Origin: Leptotrichia shahii
GTDB taxonomy: Bacteria > Fusobacteriota > Fusobacteriia > Fusobacteriales > Leptotrichiaceae
Direction of reading: 5' to 3'
Length of the DNA stretch: 64,000 bases
NCBI RefSeq assembly: GCF_008327825.1
Contig: NZ_AP019827.1
Location: 1,240,001-1,304,000 of the forward strand
Below the pieces are notes generated by a model, which was not told the DNA's origin, ran no database searches, and saw nothing but the letters and a program-made list of their open reading frames with translations. Numbering within the stretch: the stretch's first letter is position 1; each line of letters opens with the position of its first letter. Of the stretch, positions 7,285-60,173 are shown one piece after another. Both the position numbers and the translations under genes were made by a program.

Positions 7285-8637
7285 CTAACCTTTTGAAAAA
7301 AATTCCTTTGCCAATTCCTTCAAATAAAATACATCAAAAATTCCACATAATTCACGCACCGAATGCATTGCAAACATTGGAATTCCAAGATCTACTCCAT
7401 CTACATCCAGATGTGTTGATGAAATTGGACCAATTGTACTTCCGCCAAGCTCATTTGACTCATTTACAAATGGCTGTATCTGTATTTCTGTACCTTCAAC
7501 AAGCTGCTTAATTACCGCAATCGAATATCCATCAGAAGTATATTTCTGCTTTGCACTTATCTTTATTGAAATCCCTTCGTTTATTTTTCCACGATTTGTA
7601 GGATCTGTTTTTCCTAAATGTGCAGGATGTGCCGCATGTGCCGCATCAGCTGACAAAATATATGAACTTTCAAGCATTTGTAAAAAATCTTCTCGATTTA
7701 GCCCAAGAGCCAATGAAATTCTTTCTAGCGTATTTAATAAATAATTAGAATCTGCCCCCTGTTTTGTTGCACTTCCTATCTCCTCATTGTCAAAAGCTAC
7801 AAAGACATTAATTCTATCCTGATTTTCTTCAGCTTCCACAAGACCAATCAGTCCCGTATAAACAGAAGCAAGATTGTCAATTTTTGGCGATGACATGAAT
7901 TCCTCATTTGCCCCCAAAAGACATCCTTTTTCTGTTGCATATAAATACAAGTCAAAATCAATTATATCTTCTTTTTTTATCTCAGTTTTCTTCAAAATAA
8001 TTCTTTCAAGATACCCTTCTCTTTCAAAATTCTTATTAATAAGTGAAATTACAGGTAGAACATCATTTTGCTTATCAATTTTTACACCATTATTTACTTC
8101 TCTGTTTTGATGAATTGCTAAATTTGGTATTGTCAAAAGCGGTTCATCTATCCTAATTTTTATAGTTTTCGGGAAAAATGTATCCTCTCCTCTCACAATA
8201 ACACGGCCAGCAATGGAAAGTGGCCTGTCAAACCATGTACTTAAGATTGGCCCTCCATAAACTTCCGTATTCAATCTCACTACATTTTCTGTGACTATTT
8301 CAGGACTAGGCTTTATTCTAAAACAAGGAGAATCCGTATGTGCCCCAAATATCTTAAAACCTTTTTTTACATCAAAATTTTCTCCAACTGTAAAAGCAAT
8401 TATTGTGGAACTAGATTTTTTTAAAAAATACTTTCCGCCTTTTTTAATTTCCCATTTCTCACGTGGCATAATTCTTTCAAACCCGTTTTCATCCAAAATA
8501 TCCGAACAGTTTTTCACAACGTGATAAGTACTTGGACTTTCATCGATAAATTCGATAACTTCCCTTGCAAAACTTTTCACTTCCATCTCAATAAAATTTT
8601 TCTGTATCTCTTCCAGCTCTCTCGTTGTGTGTATCAT
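7285..8637 (-). CDS. apeB: M18 family aminopeptidase
   Basis: A 450-residue zinc aminopeptidase of the M18 (aspartyl/ApeB) family. Metal-binding motifs are visible: GAHTDSPCFRIKP with H100, the FDNEEIGS glutamate pair near residue 290, SADAAHAAHPAH near 328-340 and the C-terminal AMHSVRELCG histidine. Cytosolic; it would trim N-terminal residues from peptides, fitting a peptide-fermenting organism that also carries an OPT peptide transporter and PepF in this window. Monocistronic with its own terminator. Confidence 0.9.
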   Translation of the reverse strand: MIHTTRELEEIQKNFIEMEVKSFAREVIEFIDESPSTYHVVKNCSDILDENGFERIMPREKWEIKKGGKYFLKKSSSTIIAFTVGENFDVKKGFKIFGAHTDSPCFRIKPSPEIVTENVVRLNTEVYGGPILSTWFDRPLSIAGRVIVRGEDTFFPKTIKIRIDEPLLTIPNLAIHQNREVNNGVKIDKQNDVLPVISLINKNFEREGYLERIILKKTEIKKEDIIDFDLYLYATEKGCLLGANEEFMSSPKIDNLASVYTGLIGLVEAEENQDRINVFVAFDNEEIGSATKQGADSNYLLNTLERISLALGLNREDFLQMLESSYILSADAAHAAHPAHLGKTDPTNRGKINEGISIKISAKQKYTSDGYSIAVIKQLVEGTEIQIQPFVNESNELGGSTIGPISSTHLDVDGVDLGIPMFAMHSVRELCGIFDVFYLKELAKEFFSKG

Positions 8638-8767
8638 CTCTATTCATTCCTCTCAAATACAAATTTAAATTATTTAAAAATATTTCCCTATTAACAATAT
8701 TGTACCCCATAATTTCAGATAATCAAAAAAAATTTTGATATTTTTTTAAATTTTTTTCTTTTTGCGT

Positions 8768-9013
8768 TATACTATTTCCCATTAAAATAATATAATTGGT
8801 ATACCTTCTGTTACTCAAAGGGTCAAGACCCCTTGCTTCAAGATATTTATTTTATTAAATTCTAAGTTTGTATAGTTATCGAACAGGTCTAATGTATTCT
8901 CACTTTATCCTATTATTAAAACAATAAATTTGATATATCTTCTACAAGGAATTAAGACTCCTTGTCAGAAACTGTAAAATATAATTTCTATTTTTCAAAT
9001 GGATTTAGCATTA
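8768..9013 (+). repeat. repeat B, interrupted by a copy of repeat A
   Basis: The left end TATACTATTTCCCATTAAAA (8768-8787) and the right part from 8915 (ATTAAAACAATAAATTTG through to GATTTAGCATTA) together reproduce the B element at 43052-43174. The sequence between is foreign to B and contains an A core. ATTAAAA occurs at 8781-8787 and again at 8915-8921, as expected for a 7-base target duplication. The distal B end supplies the TAA stop of the downstream esterase gene. Confidence 0.7.
8788..8914 (+). repeat. repeat A copy nested in repeat B
   Basis: Contains the core CAAAGGGTCAAGACCCCTTG (8816-8835), the shared right arm CTTCAAGATATTTATTTTAT and the terminal GAACAGGTCTA (8881-8891), which is the exact reverse complement of the left end TAGACCTGTTC of the copy at 27300. 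Its left arm is diverged. Confidence 0.65.
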
Positions 9014-10282
9014 TTTCACTCTTGAAGAATTTCTTTTCTGTTTGAATAGCCATTCCATGACAGGTTTCATATCGTATGCATGCTGCCAGGTATAACGATG
9101 ATTTCCATTTTTGTAAACCGTGTAATAAATATTATATCCATTTTCTATTTTACTTTGAACTTCTTTATTTACTTCATCTTGATTTTGTTCTGCATCAACT
9201 ATCATTCTTTGAACTTTTGCACCATTTTTTTCCAAATAATCTGATATTTCAGTCAAACTTGGATAAGCTCCGGGATCTCCTTCTGACGCAACAAACCATA
9301 TATTTTGATTTTTCATTGGTTCTGTTACATTTACGTCCCATTTACTTGCAACAATATACGAACCACCAAATAAATCAGGATATCTTGAATCCAATGAAAT
9401 AGAAGACATTCCACCCATTGATTGTCCTGTATTGTAAATTCTGTCTTTATCTATTGAATATTTTCCAGTTAAACTGTTTATCAATTCAACTGTTCTGTCC
9501 AGTTCAGGACCATATTCATAATTATCATTTACCGTTACTACTTCATATTGCGGTGCTAATACAAAACTAGGATGGTTTTCCTGCCATTCAGGACTTGCCC
9601 AAACTGTAGCACCATTTCCTTGACTTAGTGTGTACTTAGTTTCAGAAGATACAGCTCCTGCATCATGCATAAATACTACCATCGGATATTTTTTAGATGG
9701 GTCATAATTTTTAGGAATATACAAATTATATTTCAAAGTCTTCCCATCTTTTTCAGTAAATACAAATTGCTTGAAGTCTTCTATTATTAATTGTCTTGTT
9801 TTTGTTGAAACTTGTTTTTCCTCAGAATTGTAAACTTTTCCATTTACAGTTTTTACACTTCCTGTTTGAGTTACTTCTGCTGTAATTGTTTTTAAAGGTT
9901 TTGCATCGCCTTTTCCACCCAATGTCGGTCCTTTTTGTCCTGTTGCTTTTTTCTTTTCCATTTCTTCTTTAGAATGGTCGCTTGCCTGAGCTACCATCGG
10001 AAGTCTTTTCAATTCCAAAATTACATATTTTCCATTTTTTGATTTTTTCTCATTTCTTTCATTTTGTTTACTTACATATACTTTTTCAATTTCTCTGCCT
10101 TCTACTTTATAATCTGAAACAGAAACTGAATTCCCAACAATTTCTTTATCGTATGTAAGCACAACTGCTGATAATTTTTCTCCATCTCCAAACACTTCTG
10201 TTATCGCTTCCACATTTTTAATATTACCTGCAAAAGACAAACTTGCAATTCCTAATAATCCTATTACTATATTTTTTATCAT
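9011..10282 (-). CDS. secreted esterase, alpha/beta hydrolase (prolyl-oligopeptidase/PHB-depolymerase-like)
   Basis: A 423-residue protein with an N-terminal signal peptide (cleavage likely after SLSFA, residue 18). Residues 20-165 form an Ig-like/unknown N-terminal region rich in Lys and Glu. Residues 170-415 form an alpha/beta hydrolase with the oxyanion strand MVVFMHDAG at about 201-209, nucleophile S288 in GQSMGGM and a late histidine in GNHRYTWQHA. The layout resembles predicted peptidases of the PHB-depolymerase/feruloyl-esterase type. Substrate unknown. The stop codon lies in the end of a B repeat, so the extreme C-terminus may have been altered by that insertion. Confidence 0.75.
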   Translation of the reverse strand: MIKNIVIGLLGIASLSFAGNIKNVEAITEVFGDGEKLSAVVLTYDKEIVGNSVSVSDYKVEGREIEKVYVSKQNERNEKKSKNGKYVILELKRLPMVAQASDHSKEEMEKKKATGQKGPTLGGKGDAKPLKTITAEVTQTGSVKTVNGKVYNSEEKQVSTKTRQLIIEDFKQFVFTEKDGKTLKYNLYIPKNYDPSKKYPMVVFMHDAGAVSSETKYTLSQGNGATVWASPEWQENHPSFVLAPQYEVVTVNDNYEYGPELDRTVELINSLTGKYSIDKDRIYNTGQSMGGMSSISLDSRYPDLFGGSYIVASKWDVNVTEPMKNQNIWFVASEGDPGAYPSLTEISDYLEKNGAKVQRMIVDAEQNQDEVNKEVQSKIENGYNIYYTVYKNGNHRYTWQHAYDMKPVMEWLFKQKRNSSRVK

Positions 10283-15921: not shown

Positions 15922-15995
15922 ATAAAACATATATTTAAAAATTTTTTTATTATTTTCATTTCAAACTAAAAACTTAAAAAATTTATATGAATTAT

Positions 15996-16168
15996 ATCTG
16001 ACAGCTCCCCATTATCCCTTGATAATGACAGTCCTATGGATATTATCCATAGCCCCAGCAAAAAAGATAGTCAATCCCTATGCTTCGGCAGTTATTCCTT
16101 TCAACTTATTTCACAGAATCGACTTTTCTCCGTAAATTTACTTTTAATAACTGCACCTCTATCATATA
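15996..16168 (-). promoter_or_regulatory. lysine riboswitch (L box) aptamer
   Basis: Read on the minus strand, the conserved L-box blocks occur in order: AGAGGTGC near the 5' end, AGTAA and ACGGAGAAAAGTC, GAAAGGAATAACTGCCGAAG, TTGCTGGGGCTATGGATA, and the closing GGGGAGCTGTC. The closing P1 helix can be drawn (TTATATGATAG with CTGTC-AG-ATATAA). The promoter lies just upstream and a terminator downstream, before lysA. It should repress lysA-lysC-SDR-dapF-dapA when lysine is abundant. Confidence 0.95.
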
Positions 16169-16177
16169 ACTTATATT

Positions 16178-21536: not shown

Positions 21537-21854
21537 ATTTTTAGTATTTCTCTCCTTTCTAATAATTTTTATTTAGTCATTTGTAAAAGTCTGAAAAGTA
21601 CGATAAATACAGTATTTTACATTTAATTTTCTTCTTTTCTCCACTTTTGGACAAGGGGCTTAACCATAAATACTACTGTTATTCAATTTTACTTTTACAA
21701 CTGCCTAGATAATTTTTATTATTTATCTTAAATAAATTAAATGACTTTTTTAAATTTATCACAATTAATCAAACTTGTCAAACCTTTTTCAATCTTCAAA
21801 TCAAATTTACATAATTAAATATTTATGTTTGTAAAATTTTTTTTATTTCTATAA
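21537..21854. other. intergenic between divergent DUF3290 and ktrB
   Basis: No gene seen. Around 21651 a short ACAAGGGGCTTAACC resembles half of the A/B repeat core but no full element can be drawn. I looked for a c-di-AMP (ydaO) riboswitch before the potassium genes and did not find one. Confidence 0.4.
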
Positions 21855-43044: not shown

Positions 43045-43051
43045 TTAATTT

Positions 43052-43174
43052 TATACTATTTCCCATTAAAGCAATAGATTTATTATAAATTCTATTTAAC
43101 ATGAGGTCTTGATCCCTTGCCACAAAAAAATAAATAAAATATAATTTCTATTTTTCAAATGGGATTTAGTATTA
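43052..43174 (+). repeat. repeat B copy (full length)
   Basis: A 123-base element from TATACTATTTCCCATTAAAG to TTCAAATGGGATTTAGTATTA, with core CATGAGGTCTTGATCCCTTG. The ends are imperfect inverted repeats. It lies between argH and the GNAT gene and serves as the reference copy here. Confidence 0.78.
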
Positions 43175-43249
43175 AATAAAAATTTTAGAAAATTATTCAT
43201 TTATAGCGAAAAACTTATTTAACAATACATTGAAAGGAAAATTTATACA

Positions 43250-53204: not shown

Positions 53205-55145
53205 TTATTTTTTAAATTCTTTATAAATTTTATTTTTATCTCTTACTGTAACTCCATTACTTGTCTCAATTATCTTAAAACTTTCTGGGTCTGCACCTTT
53301 AATTTCCCGATCTTCAATATACACTTTATTCTTATCTTTTGCATAACCAAACATTAATTGTACAAATGATGAAGTATCAGCCCCTTTTACTTTGGCGAAA
53401 ACTTTATTTGGATTCAATTCATCTAATCTAAATGCGTCAAAATAATAAACCCCATTTTTATCTTGAAAATAACCCATAGACTCAGATTCATACGAATTAT
53501 CAGCATTAGAATATTTAAAAGAATTTGCATCAAAATTTAAAGCAACTATTTCATATACTTCTTTACCAGCTTTATTTTTTAACACATAAACTTTATCTTT
53601 AGTTTTTAAGAAAAAAATAATATCTTCATTATTTTTAAAGTCACGACCCACAAATTCAAATCCATCTGGATTTATACCTTTCATTTTATTTCCATAATAA
53701 TAAACATTGTTTTTATCTCTTGAAAATTCATCATTCAAAACCTCAAAACTATTTCTATCTGCACCTGCTATTTTTTTCAAGCCCATTTTATACAATTCAT
53801 TTTCGTAATACACGTTATTTTTATCACGAAAATAATTTCCCGAATAACTAAACGTTTCAAAAGTTTTAGAATCTACTTTAGGATTTTTTACAACAGCTGT
53901 TTTTACACTTTTTAGCTCACCAGTTTCTTCATCAAATACTGCAATAAGTTTATATATATTCTTATTATCATTTAAAAAATTGATTGGTAAATTTGGTCTA
54001 TTAACAAGTCTTGTAACTTTAAATCCAGCTGAACTTATATCATTTAATTTTCTTCCTGCGTAATAAACATTTTTCTTGTCATACGAAAAACCATTTTCTT
54101 CTCCAATAGTAAAACTGCTTTTATCCACATCCTGTAACTGCACAACATTATATCCTGCATAATAAACATTATTTTTGTCTTTAGAATAATCACTATTTTC
54201 CATTACTTCAAAAGTATCTTTATCAGCATTTTTTATTATTTTAAGATAACCAGCTTCCTTATACGGTGTCATCACGTATACATTTTTATCATCTTTTCCA
54301 TAAACAACCATACTTGGACTGCTTAAATAATTTTCTATTATTTCAAACTTTTCAGGATTTTTTATATTCACTTTTTCTCCCAAATAGTAGACTTCATTTC
54401 CATTTTTAACCAAATTACTATCCAAAACTTTAAAATCTTTTTCATTTATTTTCCCAAGATTTTTAACATCTCCAAAGTAATAATACAGGTTATTCTTATC
54501 TCTGGCATAATTTGTTTCAGGAATTCTTCTAAAAGTTTGAGGATCTGCATCTTTTATAATGTCTACTGCAGCATACACATTTTTATCATCCTTTGAATAC
54601 ATTCCATCCCCAATTATTTTAAATGTTTTTGGATTCGCACCTTTAATTTTTTCTCCTGAATAATAGACCGCATTTTTGTCTTTTGCATAACTATGGTCTG
54701 CTTCCAGAACTACAAATGAATTTACATCTGCATTTGAAATTTTGTCTGAATCATAATATACATTTTTATCATCCTTTGAATAAAATTCATTCAAAACTTT
54801 TATTGTTTTTGGATTTGCTCCATTTATTTTGTGAATCCATTCATTAATTGGTCTATAAACATTATTCTTATCTCTTGAATAATACTGTGGCAGCACTTCA
54901 AAAGTTTTACTGTCCACATCTTCAAACGATTTATTTCCTGAAAAATAAACATTTTTCCTATCCTTTGCATATTTATCATTCAGTATTTTAAACGTTCCTA
55001 AATCCACATTTTCAACTTTAAATTCTGAATCATCTTCTTCACTGTATTTGTAATAAACTGCATTATCCTTTTTCACATATTCTGCCATTCCTAAATTAAC
55101 TAAAATAAATACTCCAGCAATAATTTTAAAAAATTTACTTTTCAT
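53205..55145 (-). CDS. DKNYY-repeat secreted protein 1
   Basis: About 646 residues from the ATG of MKSKFF, which has GGAGGG upstream. Signal peptide with VLVNLGMAEYVKKDNAVYY at the cleavage region. The mature protein is a chain of roughly 15-20 DKNYY repeats: (K/R)DKNNVYY.G.K(I/M) followed by an acidic turn (A.A.PKTF..L or VD.KTF). The repeats alternate about every 25-45 residues, suggesting a long beta-solenoid or array of strands. Exported; a surface or outer-membrane-associated role is inferred. It is a tandem paralogue of the next gene. Confidence 0.82.
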   Translation of the reverse strand: MKSKFFKIIAGVFILVNLGMAEYVKKDNAVYYKYSEEDDSEFKVENVDLGTFKILNDKYAKDRKNVYFSGNKSFEDVDSKTFEVLPQYYSRDKNNVYRPINEWIHKINGANPKTIKVLNEFYSKDDKNVYYDSDKISNADVNSFVVLEADHSYAKDKNAVYYSGEKIKGANPKTFKIIGDGMYSKDDKNVYAAVDIIKDADPQTFRRIPETNYARDKNNLYYYFGDVKNLGKINEKDFKVLDSNLVKNGNEVYYLGEKVNIKNPEKFEIIENYLSSPSMVVYGKDDKNVYVMTPYKEAGYLKIIKNADKDTFEVMENSDYSKDKNNVYYAGYNVVQLQDVDKSSFTIGEENGFSYDKKNVYYAGRKLNDISSAGFKVTRLVNRPNLPINFLNDNKNIYKLIAVFDEETGELKSVKTAVVKNPKVDSKTFETFSYSGNYFRDKNNVYYENELYKMGLKKIAGADRNSFEVLNDEFSRDKNNVYYYGNKMKGINPDGFEFVGRDFKNNEDIIFFLKTKDKVYVLKNKAGKEVYEIVALNFDANSFKYSNADNSYESESMGYFQDKNGVYYFDAFRLDELNPNKVFAKVKGADTSSFVQLMFGYAKDKNKVYIEDREIKGADPESFKIIETSNGVTVRDKNKIYKEFKK

Positions 55146-55185
55146 AAAAAATCCCTCCAAATCCTTTTTTAAATAATTTATTCAA

Positions 55186-55286
55186 CAGACCTATTTGATA
55201 ACTTAATTTTTTTATTTCACGAGAGGGCAAAAACCCTTGCTTCAGAACATTTGTTTTATTAAATTCTAAGTTTTCAAACAAATCTA
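55186..55286 (+). repeat. repeat A copy between the DKNYY genes
   Basis: A 101-base element with CAGACCTATTTGATAAC at the left, altered core CGAGAGGGCAAAAACCCTTG, then the shared CTTCAGAACATTTGTTTTAT and terminal AAACAAATCTA. It lies between the two DKNYY paralogues. Confidence 0.7.
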
Positions 55287-55424
55287 AATAAACGCTTAAA
55301 AACATTTAAAACCCTTCAAAATTGAATTAGATAATTAAAAAGAATTTTAGCAGGATAATTATGATTTTCTAAATTCTTTTTTAAAGCAGTTTTACTAAAA
55401 TATAAATAAAATAATTTTTACTTG

Positions 55425-57620
55425 TCACTCACAATCATTTTTATAAACTCTATTTTTATCCTTAACTACAACTCCCTCATCTTCCAGTATGACAGTAAAA
55501 CTTGGCACATCCACCCCTTTAAATTCCTTATATTTACAATAAGCTCTATTCTTATCTTTGGAATATCCATATCCAAATGCTTTAAATGTTGGGATATCAG
55601 CCCCTTCTAGTTTAATAAAGGCATTCTGCACATCCTTTGCTTCCAAATTTAATAATTTTCCATAATCAAGATAATAAATCCCATTTTTATCTTTAAAATA
55701 ATTACTCGTATTTTTATTTGCTATATCAAATGAAGCACTGTCAAAATTTAAAGGTACTATCTCATAATCTCCTTCTCCAGTTTCATCTTTCCAAAAATAT
55801 ACACCATTTTTATTTTTTACAATATCTGAACCGACAAATTTAAATCCTTCTGAACTAATATTCTCAATTTGTTTTCCAAGATAATAGACATTTTTATTAT
55901 CCTTTGCAAAAAAATTATCCATTTCGACAAAGCTGTTCCTATCACTACCTTCGACCTTTTTCAGTTCCTTCTTATTCATATCATAATAAAAAACGTTGTT
56001 CTTATCTCTGTAATAACTCCCCGTGTATTCCTTAACAAGTTCAAAGCTCGGAGCATCGACTTTCACATTTGTTACATTAGACAATTTTATATTTTTCAAA
56101 TTATATCTTTCATCATCAAATCCATAAGTAAATTTATACAAATTCCTGCTGTCTGTCAAAAAAGCAATTTTTTCAGAATCTCCAGAATTAACAGTTAAAT
56201 CAATAATTTTAAATCCTTGTGGACTTATTCTGTCTAACTTTTTTCCATAAAAATAAATACTGTTCTTATCATGCGAAAAGCCATTTTCTCCAATAGTAAA
56301 ACTGTCTTTATCTACATTTTTCATTTGTACAACATCAGAATGTGTAAAATAAATATTGTTTTTATCTTTTGTATACATACTGTTTTTCATTACTTCAAAA
56401 GAATTTACATCTGCATTTTTTATTATTTTACTTGAATAAGTTTCATCAAATTTTGAAATTGCATATACATTTTTATCATCTTTTCCATAAATAAAATTTG
56501 GAAAGTTATAATATTTACTCAAAATTATTTCAAAAGTTTCTGGACTTTTTATATTCAATTTTTTCCCTTCTGCAAAAATTCTATTTCTATTTTTTACCAC
56601 GTCAATTCCATCAAAATATAAAATTTTAAGAGTTTTATTGTCAATTTTATCAATTTTTACTTCCCGATAATAAAGATTATTTTTATCCTTTGAATAATAC
56701 GTTGTTTTAGGAAGCCTTTCAAAAGTTTTTGAATCTGCCTCTTTTATTTTGCGTCCTCCAATAAAGACACTATTTTTATCTTTTGAATACATCTGAACAA
56801 GATCACTAGGCTCTAAAATAACTTCAAAAGATTTTGCATCAGCTCCTTTTATTTTTTCACCAAGAAAGTAAACATTATTTTTATCTTTTCCATAAGCTAC
56901 GTTTCCCTCTATGGCTTCAAAAGTAGCTACATCGACATTTTCCATCTTTTGTCCAAAATTCAAAAATACATTTTTATCATCCTTCAAATAAACCTGATCT
57001 AATATTTTTATCGTATCAGGATTCGCATCCTTTATTTTATCAGAGCCACTGTACACATTATTCTTGTCTTTTGCGTAATAATCAGGCATTATTATCTGAA
57101 ATGTACTTTTATCAACATCGTATATCGGTGTTCCAGCATAATAAATATTATACCTGTCCTTTGAATAACTTTCATCAATTGCTTCAAAACTGTCTAAATC
57201 CTGAACATATTCAACTTCAAAAAAACTTCCTCCAATATACAGTTTACCATTATTTCTAAAATACAAAAGTTTATTTTTATTTTTGTAAAGTTTGAAATCC
57301 TTTGGATTTATCTCCATTTTTTCATCATAATTATAAATATATTTTTTATCTTTCCCATTGACTTCCCCAATTACCTGAAAAGTCTTAACATCAGCATCTT
57401 CTAGCTTCTTGTCAATACAAAAAACATTTTTACTATCTTTCCCATAAATCTCATTTAATTTCACAAATGTCTTAAAATCTGCGTCTTCCACTTTTCTTTC
57501 ATCAGTCTGCGATATTTTATCCATATAGTAAACAGCATCATCTTTTTTTATATACTCAGCCATTCCCAAATTTGCCAAAAGAAAGACAAGCACAACAATT
57601 TTAGAAAACTTATTTACCAT
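55425..57620 (-). CDS. DKNYY-repeat secreted protein 2
   Basis: A 731-residue paralogue of the gene downstream. It shares the signal peptide end (LLANLGMAEYIKKDDAVYY), the repeated YxKDKNNVYY.GxKI units and the ending VVVKDKNRVYK. About 20 repeats can be followed along the chain, with variants such as RNRIFAEGKK where the YY is lost. GGAGGG precedes the ATG. The two genes are separated by repeat A and another about 100 bases, so they may be transcribed together or singly. Confidence 0.82.
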   Translation of the reverse strand: MVNKFSKIVVLVFLLANLGMAEYIKKDDAVYYMDKISQTDERKVEDADFKTFVKLNEIYGKDSKNVFCIDKKLEDADVKTFQVIGEVNGKDKKYIYNYDEKMEINPKDFKLYKNKNKLLYFRNNGKLYIGGSFFEVEYVQDLDSFEAIDESYSKDRYNIYYAGTPIYDVDKSTFQIIMPDYYAKDKNNVYSGSDKIKDANPDTIKILDQVYLKDDKNVFLNFGQKMENVDVATFEAIEGNVAYGKDKNNVYFLGEKIKGADAKSFEVILEPSDLVQMYSKDKNSVFIGGRKIKEADSKTFERLPKTTYYSKDKNNLYYREVKIDKIDNKTLKILYFDGIDVVKNRNRIFAEGKKLNIKSPETFEIILSKYYNFPNFIYGKDDKNVYAISKFDETYSSKIIKNADVNSFEVMKNSMYTKDKNNIYFTHSDVVQMKNVDKDSFTIGENGFSHDKNSIYFYGKKLDRISPQGFKIIDLTVNSGDSEKIAFLTDSRNLYKFTYGFDDERYNLKNIKLSNVTNVKVDAPSFELVKEYTGSYYRDKNNVFYYDMNKKELKKVEGSDRNSFVEMDNFFAKDNKNVYYLGKQIENISSEGFKFVGSDIVKNKNGVYFWKDETGEGDYEIVPLNFDSASFDIANKNTSNYFKDKNGIYYLDYGKLLNLEAKDVQNAFIKLEGADIPTFKAFGYGYSKDKNRAYCKYKEFKGVDVPSFTVILEDEGVVVKDKNRVYKNDCE

Positions 57621-58659: not shown

Positions 58660-58857
58660 TTTTATCTATTTTTTATTTGACAACGGGGCAAAACCCTCGC
58701 TTCAGAACATTTATTTTATTAAATTCTAAATGTACTCGAACTCATTTAAAACTGAACTATTAAAAATTATATAAATTTAGGGTCTAAGTAAAATAGTCAT
58801 AGTTTTTGAGTTTGGTTTTAAATTAATTTTACTATATATAGTTTATGAACAAGTCTA
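58660..58857 (+). repeat. repeat A copy interrupted by repeat C
   Basis: Left part with core CAACGGGGCAAAACCCTCG and CTTCAGAACATTTATTTTAT; right end TATAGTTTATGAACAAGTCTA. Comparison with the copy at 8788 shows the C element sits at the GTATAG position of the right arm. About 95 bases of A remain around 104 bases of C. Confidence 0.7.
58733..58836 (+). repeat. repeat C copy 4, nested in repeat A
   Basis: A 104-base element from TACTCGAACTCATTTAAAAC to ATTTTACTATA. Both flanks are recognisable repeat A. Confidence 0.78.
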
Positions 58858-59062
58858 CTTTTAGCAAATTCATTTCCAAATATTTAGCATTTTTTCCCTA
58901 AATTTTATAAAATAAATTCTCACTGTATAAACTATGATTATTCTATAAACTAATTTTTTTGATAAAAATAATAAAAATAAATTTCCTTTACTGTAAATTT
59001 TTAACAGCAAATTCTATTTTACAAAACTTTAATTACGACAGTAATATAAATATTTAAAATAA
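58858..59062. other. intergenic, no further feature seen
   Basis: AT-rich DNA after the A/C composite and before the thioesterase stop. No open frame, and no terminator I would trust. Confidence 0.4.
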
Positions 59063-59768: not shown

Positions 59769-59859
59769 TTATTTTTTCCCTCCATTTTTATCCCAATTTT
59801 ATTTTCTTACAGTTATTATACCATATTTTCAATATTCTTATCAAATTTTGTTTTTAATT

Positions 59860-59980
59860 TAACACTAAACACCATTTTAAAAATAGAAATTATATTTTAT
59901 ATTATTTGCTAACAAGTGGGCTTGATCTCTTACAAAGAAATTTATAATTAGTCTGCTATTTAAAAATAGAAAATAGCATA
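59860..59980 (-). repeat. repeat B copy near the second ttcA paralogue
   Basis: A 121-base reverse-orientation B: TAACACTAAACACCATTTTA at one end, AGAAATTATATTTTAT inside, core CAAGTGGGCTTGATCTCTTA and AAATAGCATA at the other end. More diverged than the other full copies. Confidence 0.6.
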
Positions 59981-59998
59981 AATACGGAAAAAATTTAT

Positions 59999-60116
59999 TA
60001 GACCTTTTACCTTTTCGTTAGCTATACGAACTCAGAATCTAATAAAATAAATATCCTGAAGCAAGGGGTCTTGACCCCTTGTATAGATAAAAAAACTTAG
60101 GTTATCGAACATATCT
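59999..60116 (-). repeat. repeat A copy upstream of the second ttcA paralogue
   Basis: A reverse-orientation A of about 118 bases: TAGACCTTTTACCTTTTCG at one end, perfect core CAAGGGGTCTTGACCCCTTG at 60062-60081 and GTTATCGAACATATCT at the other. It follows repeat B by under 20 bases. Confidence 0.72.
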
Positions 60117-60173
60117 ATTTATCAATTCAATATTTTAACAATGGTAAAACAAAAAAATATAATTTTACTATAG

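Follow-up and report, generated by a model that had tools for sequence, protein, structure and literature searches.

The locus at 8767-9013 of the window (the whole stretch of 64,000 nucleotides that was analysed) is flanked by two genes on the minus strand, an M18 aminopeptidase gene at 7285-8637 (Pfam PF02127, E 3e-127; NCBIfam NF002759) and an esterase-like gene at 9011-10282, the product of which is predicted to be secreted (EstA_Ig_like plus Esterase, Pfam PF18435 and PF00756). The locus carries sequence of two repeat families, A and B, all on the plus strand. Its leftmost part, named B1 (8767-8835), is the left half of a repeat B; it begins with the outer end, where TA stands at 8770-8771, and takes in the whole of a central palindrome (B profile 6-81). 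The palindrome (8816-8835) is common to the two families, reads CAAAGGGTCAAGACCCCTTG at the locus and CAAGGGGTCAAGACCCCTTG in the consensus, and has the crossover inside it. A young copy of repeat A follows, represented by its right half (8816-8890), an A profile match that extends to the outer end CAGGTCT; AAT at 8891-8893 is the would-be right target-duplication copy of this A part. The last part, B2 (8912-9008), is a second B, worn and nearly complete (B profile 14-128). Its left end is degenerate and its right end, GGATTTAG at 9008, nearly touches the esterase stop codon (9011-9013). The hybrid formed by B1 and the A part is located about 130 nt upstream of the start of the M18 aminopeptidase gene. 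Folding of the hybrid DNA was unremarkable (z -0.72), and a terminator function of the palindrome was rejected, no terminator-like site being found in 8600-9100.

Profiles were built from complete copies at other places of the genome (28 of A and 21 of B), with the locus itself excluded. The B profile gave two matches at the locus, both in one orientation: positions 6-81 aligned at 8766-8841 (44.7 bits; E 4e-13 for the window), and positions 14-128 at 8912-9014 (46.3 bits). B profile positions 14-81 were covered twice. The A profile matched at 8815-8895 only (84.5 bits, profile positions 45-125 of 128) and the left end of A, profile positions 1-44, was missing. The A part was 97% identical to the A consensus and, among its best relatives in the genus, 99% identical over 80 nt to C1:358760-358839. 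The original prediction had compared the locus with the complete B copy at 43048-43176 (plus strand), which is one of the B profile's own training copies and scored 97.9 bits against it. That comparison assigned 20 bases to the left B match and took the right part to be the rest of the same B. In fact the match of B1 to the copy at 43050 covers 8767-8836 (8766-8841 by profile) and includes the whole central palindrome, and the right part is a second B copy.

The assignment of B1 was examined with several measures. Its first 69 bases gave an ungapped match to copies from the genus, with up to 86% identity. The outward arm, scored without the palindrome, reached 26.4 bits, against at most 1.8 bits in 1184 shuffled control arms and at most 13.3 bits in genuine window sequence. 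The spacing from the end of B1 to the palindrome was 47 nt, the commonest value for B (6 of the 19 copies measured, out of 21). The segment 8788-8815 taken alone was moderately B-like, with a mean score of 16.3 compared with 9.6 for shuffles (s.d. 2.7, highest 19.0 of 300), so the case for B1 depends on the whole 69-nt ungapped match. Of the candidates at first look, 40 out of 247 were scored in one comparison and 40 out of 168 in another.

The original prediction read the locus as the insertion of a whole or almost whole A into a single B with duplication of ATTAAAA. The heptamers are located as it said, the first at 8781-8787 and the second at 8915-8921, separated by 127 bases (8788-8914). 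When these 127 bases were excised and the flanks joined, the B profile matched over almost its full length (positions 6-128) with 58.7 bits. This joined-flank alignment is respectable, yet it is poorer than two separate B matches (44.7 and 46.2 bits). The stretch 8788-8836, inside the presumed insert, is B-like too, and with B positions 14-81 doubled and the left end of A absent, entry of A as a unit into a pre-existing B is not supported. A sequence is indeed flanked by two B stretches, but they are not one split B. The heptamer itself is common, being found 80 times in the window on both strands, and at the locus its two occurrences stand at homologous places inside two B copies. The first lies within B1 at the same place in the B alignment as the second, within B2, does in the B profile alignment. 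B copies carry CCATTAAAA or a near variant at this position, which indicates that both have ATTAAAA by descent. Elsewhere A duplicates 3 bp and not 7.

The degree of divergence gave the same answer. B1 and B2 were 69% identical, and random B pairs had a mean identity of 70% with a range of 51-94% (210 pairs, 49% of which were no more alike than B1 and B2). Had a young A produced the duplication, its two copies would be identical. Since the two B pieces are just 69% alike, against 97-99% between the A part and other copies of A, they cannot be a target duplication that A generated. A host interrupted once, a complete insert and identical direct repeats, the marks of a nested insertion, were not found at this locus, and we consider insertion of A into a single B very improbable. 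The case also carries a warning: a 7-mer match beside an insert is insufficient for calling a target duplication when two repeat copies adjoin.

To locate the join, the sequence 8767-8895 was used as query against the 13 genomes of the genus. Among the matches listed, those to A started at or near query position 50 and those to B ended at position 69. The two sets overlap at 8816-8835, which is the palindrome CAAAGGGTCAAGACCCCTTG; since they meet nowhere else, the join falls inside the common palindrome. None of the matches listed in the 13 genomes spanned both halves, except the locus itself. Thus the right half of A is joined to the left half of B within a palindrome owned by both families.

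Repeat A is about 110 nt long, with ends AGATATGTTCGATAAC and GTTATCGAACAGGTCT and terminal inverted repeats AGAYMTGTTCGATAAC. Judged from its length alone, it lacks coding capacity. At least 52 matches were found in this genome, weak partial and palindrome-only ones counted, and A was present in all 13 genomes of the genus. Of 36 full copies, 33 were parsed, and the 3-bp flanks were equal in 19 of these, a figure that is somewhat generous as the ends of A were chosen after the copies had been seen; 10.3 were expected under shuffled pairing, and only 2 of 5000 shuffles were as high. When duplication lengths of 1 to 8 were compared, none but 3 stood out. The flanks were mostly AAT or ATT, with one pair of AAA. 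A 3-bp ANT target is typical of the ISL2-type subgroup of IS5. TA had been considered as the target duplication of A and was replaced by 3 bp on account of the copy at C1:601346, which has AAA on both sides, and of the empty sites.

Nine joined-flank sites (seven of A, two of B) served as queries against the genus. Six were matched across the junction, four were aligned and two were clean. Both clean sites belong to A and have a single copy of the duplicated bases. The copy at C1:358724 is absent in G012 and G009, and that at C1:206007 is absent in G006, G011, G007, G009 and G012. The aligned A site C1:713032 had an untidy junction. Elements of the IS5 family, 902 and 892 bp long and bounded by AGACCTGTTCGATAAC, were found in G006 and G002. 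They contain a two-frame IS5-family transposase gene (HTH_Tnp_4, DDE_Tnp_4/DDE_Tnp_1), the NCBIfam NF033581 match of which was below the cut-off, the gene being split over two frames. Related copies or pieces of this IS5-like parent were found in G012, G010 and G005. Taken together, these features identify A as a short non-autonomous MITE bearing IS5-family ends, with a 3-bp duplication of AAT, ATT or AAA. No intact parent of A was found in its own genome, where two PF01609 matches without A ends were present; these were ruled out as parents, their ends not matching.

Some A copies have internal deletions in the left half, as at C1:1659972 and C1:2103343. Outside the genus, a 22-mer scan gave only an end-like match of 14.6 bits in an Oscillospiraceae MAG (SVQN01000010.1), the wider sequence of which is not A. 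There the outer 22 nt of the A right end (L104, 5179-5200) stand beside different sequence, and the match probably reflects similar transposon ends in a distant phylum. No match to A was found in the plasmid and phage collections. The 17-mer from the A end was present in three viral contigs of 46-48% GC, where the end is unpaired.

Repeat B has the ends TACTAAATCCCATTT and TACTATTTCCCATT, to be compared with the IS630 ends TACTAAACCCCGTTTAAA. IS630 elements in G011 and G006 carry ends TACTAAACCCCGTT, and the transposase of this IS630 parent matched NF033545 with 123.5 bits (cut-off 100). The same dinucleotide, nearly always TA, was found on both sides of 23 of the 26 parsed B copies (of 28). 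At least 50 B matches were counted in this genome, including weak palindrome-only ones. The B copy at C1:524696 is absent in G009, with an untidy junction alignment. By these features B is a non-autonomous MITE of a family separate from A, with IS630-family ends and a position between TA dinucleotides. An intact parent of B was likewise not found in its own genome, whose two IS630 loci have other ends; these elements were rejected as parents of A or B, as their ends match, by eye, repeat C of the window instead. Neither parent was found in this genome, so the mover of A and B has been lost from it or was missed. One of its IS630 elements is inserted right beside the truncated left half of a B (L072, G000:C1, about 623880). 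The empty sites, the target duplications and the IS5 and IS630 parents bear out one part of the original prediction, that A and B are transposable and not mere intergenic structure. Its observation was thus partly right and the repeats are indeed mobile, although its interpretation of the locus at 8767-9013 was mostly wrong.

The palindrome, with up to 2 mismatches, gave 111 strand-wise matches in this genome, with many sites entering this number once for each strand; the pattern read backwards, used as control, gave none. Exact copies were found in 12 of the 33 genomes of the family; 11 of them belong to this genus, which has 13 among the 33, and the twelfth to a different genus. At 74 sites among the matches listed, training copies of the half-models included, both arms were scored with outward half-models, for which shuffled controls gave at most 4.3 bits. 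The sites were classified as 27 A-left/A-right, 11 B, 8 D, one B-left/A-right (the locus at 8767-9013) and one A-right/D-right (C1:339909); at 10 sites one arm only could be classified, and at 16 neither. Palindromes with unclassified arms, such as those at G000:C1:761900 and 1293131, have no counterpart among the half-models for A, B and D and may represent further families or stand-alone palindromes. Family D is a fourth repeat family, with ends near TAGGCAATTGTAAAAG and TA flanks.

The A-right/D-right hybrid at C1:339909 (L191, G000:C1:339700-340100) has its join at the same palindrome. Its arms scored 38.6 and 41.5 bits, and it was not used in training the half-models. At C1:1470244 (L040) a palindromic, inverted B-left/B-left form with a worn palindrome was found, the arms of which scored 30.4 and 25.1 bits. 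Genuine window sequence, used as a control, gave stray half-model scores that reached 24 bits, so scores of about 20 bits are not trustworthy alone. The top stray score came from a copy of D near 21.6 kb; this copy, at 21574-21708 of the window, has a worn palindrome and arms scoring 23.8 and 30.3 bits. At C1:515256, a candidate A-left/B-left hybrid, the B-left arm scored 17.4 bits and the A-left arm gave no score. Overlapping profile matches at C1:374132 suggested a second B-left/A-right hybrid; this was rejected, the B-left arm without the palindrome scoring only 2.1 bits.

The locus, as we read it with good confidence, is a B-left/A-right hybrid that is joined in the common palindrome and followed by a worn B2, and its most likely origin is deletion or template switching between palindromes. 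B1 and B2 would be old neighbours, and a young A would have landed between them or within one of them. The direct copies of the palindrome of about 20 nt in B1 and A would then have recombined, or a replication fork would have switched template from one to the other, and the resulting deletion would have taken away the right half of B1 together with the left half of A. The hybrid would have been left with one IS630-type and one IS5-type end. With such mismatched ends it should be mobilised by neither transposase, in keeping with the single copy found. The unrearranged order B-A-B was looked for among relatives and was not found.

The same anatomy could also have arisen without any role of the palindrome, if a chance deletion, or a truncated insertion of A, had ended at the palindrome of B1. 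The A copies with internal deletions in their left half, mentioned above, speak for this route. However, the junction lies exactly in the 20 nt common to A and B, the B-left spacing is still 47 nt, and the hybrid at C1:339909 joins at the same palindrome, which makes a chance endpoint unlikely. A different variant keeps both the anatomy and the joining site and replaces the deletion between neighbours by gene conversion or a half-crossover between an unlinked A and B. Hybrids between families do recur (C1:339909), and the inverted B-left/B-left form at C1:1470244 is impossible by simple deletion between direct repeats. Against this, the A part adjoins B2 directly, and a same-orientation pair of A next to B, about 21 nt apart, is present at 59858-60121, which indicates that a local deletion is enough. 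We therefore regard the exchange between unlinked copies as a less probable route, though one of some weight, and prefer the deletion or template switch between neighbours.

An empty site without the ATTAAAA pair, which the original prediction had named as a refuting result, was not cleanly readable in the related species G002. G002 has both flanking genes, with 97.9% identity on the right side and 85.7% on the left. Its similarity to the window breaks off at position 8777 and returns at 9012, so that G002 lacks the complete complex; the place is taken by about 61 other bases with a terminator-like hairpin (hairpin by eye) and is not a clean empty site. Either one lineage acquired the complex or the other lost it, and G002 is silent on the order of events.

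MITEs of different transposase families are normally regarded as separate lineages. It is unusual that one palindrome is common to unrelated families and that halves are found swapped. Tentatively, the palindrome could be an exchange point where MITEs of unrelated transposase families swap halves. Such a reading takes in at least three families (A, B and D) and joins in both orientations, with a core that has possibly spread between families and would act as a small site of recombination or template switching. Within one genus, several families combine a common 20-nt core with the ends of different transposons, and two clear hybrids are joined in the core. Hybrids at the core provide a concrete and testable route to new combinations of ends, and the palindrome is a naturally replicated substrate for the study of short-homology recombination.

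A and B are new families of a known kind of MITE. Among the papers listed in a literature search, none was found on the A or B repeats or on half-swapped MITEs. According to passages of PMC3049150, RUP of Streptococcus pneumoniae is an IS630-family MITE of 107 bp with ends like those of IS630-Spn1. B, and perhaps D, resemble IS630-family MITEs of this type in their length of about 120-150 nt, inverted ends, TA on both sides and many intergenic copies. As far as those passages describe RUP-like elements, the present repeats differ from them in their ends, in the 20-nt central palindrome that they have in common with families of other transposons, and in that no parent was found in their own genome. 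MITEPsy1, labelled 'IS5?' in the relevant part of PMC3189936, has been shown to transpose with a 4-nt duplication. A is like IS5 MITEs of the MITEPsy1 type in its length of about 110 nt, IS5-family ends, short target duplication and empty sites in relatives; on that partial account it differs in its 3-bp duplication, in the common palindrome and in its hybrids with other MITE families.

BOX elements are described in sections of PMC3049150 as composite repeats that vary in the number and kind of their inner modules, and TIME transposons in a portion of PMC4133298 as mosaic. The hybrid is like both in having exchangeable modules as building units. In contrast to BOX and TIME as presented there, it consists of whole halves, with ends for different transposases, joined at one palindrome. 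Recombination between MITE copies is named as a source of rearrangement in an extract of PMC10969869. The present case is similar to the one in that extract, in that homologous repeats serve as recombination sites, but here the homology is merely the 20-nt core of unrelated families.

Further features were observed elsewhere in the window. A real nested insertion is present at 58669-58860, where repeat C lies inside an A-like copy. When the flanks were joined, the A score was 59.7 bits, compared with 41.1 and 4.0 bits apart. The ends of C are, by eye, like those of the genome's own IS630 element. At 53205-57620 two reading frames on the minus strand are composed of many repeats (family D1), the copies often being about 90-105 nt apart; these frames may encode repeat proteins of the DKNYY type. 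The sole Rfam match in the window was a lysine riboswitch at 15994-16169 on the minus strand (RF00168, 116.6 bits).
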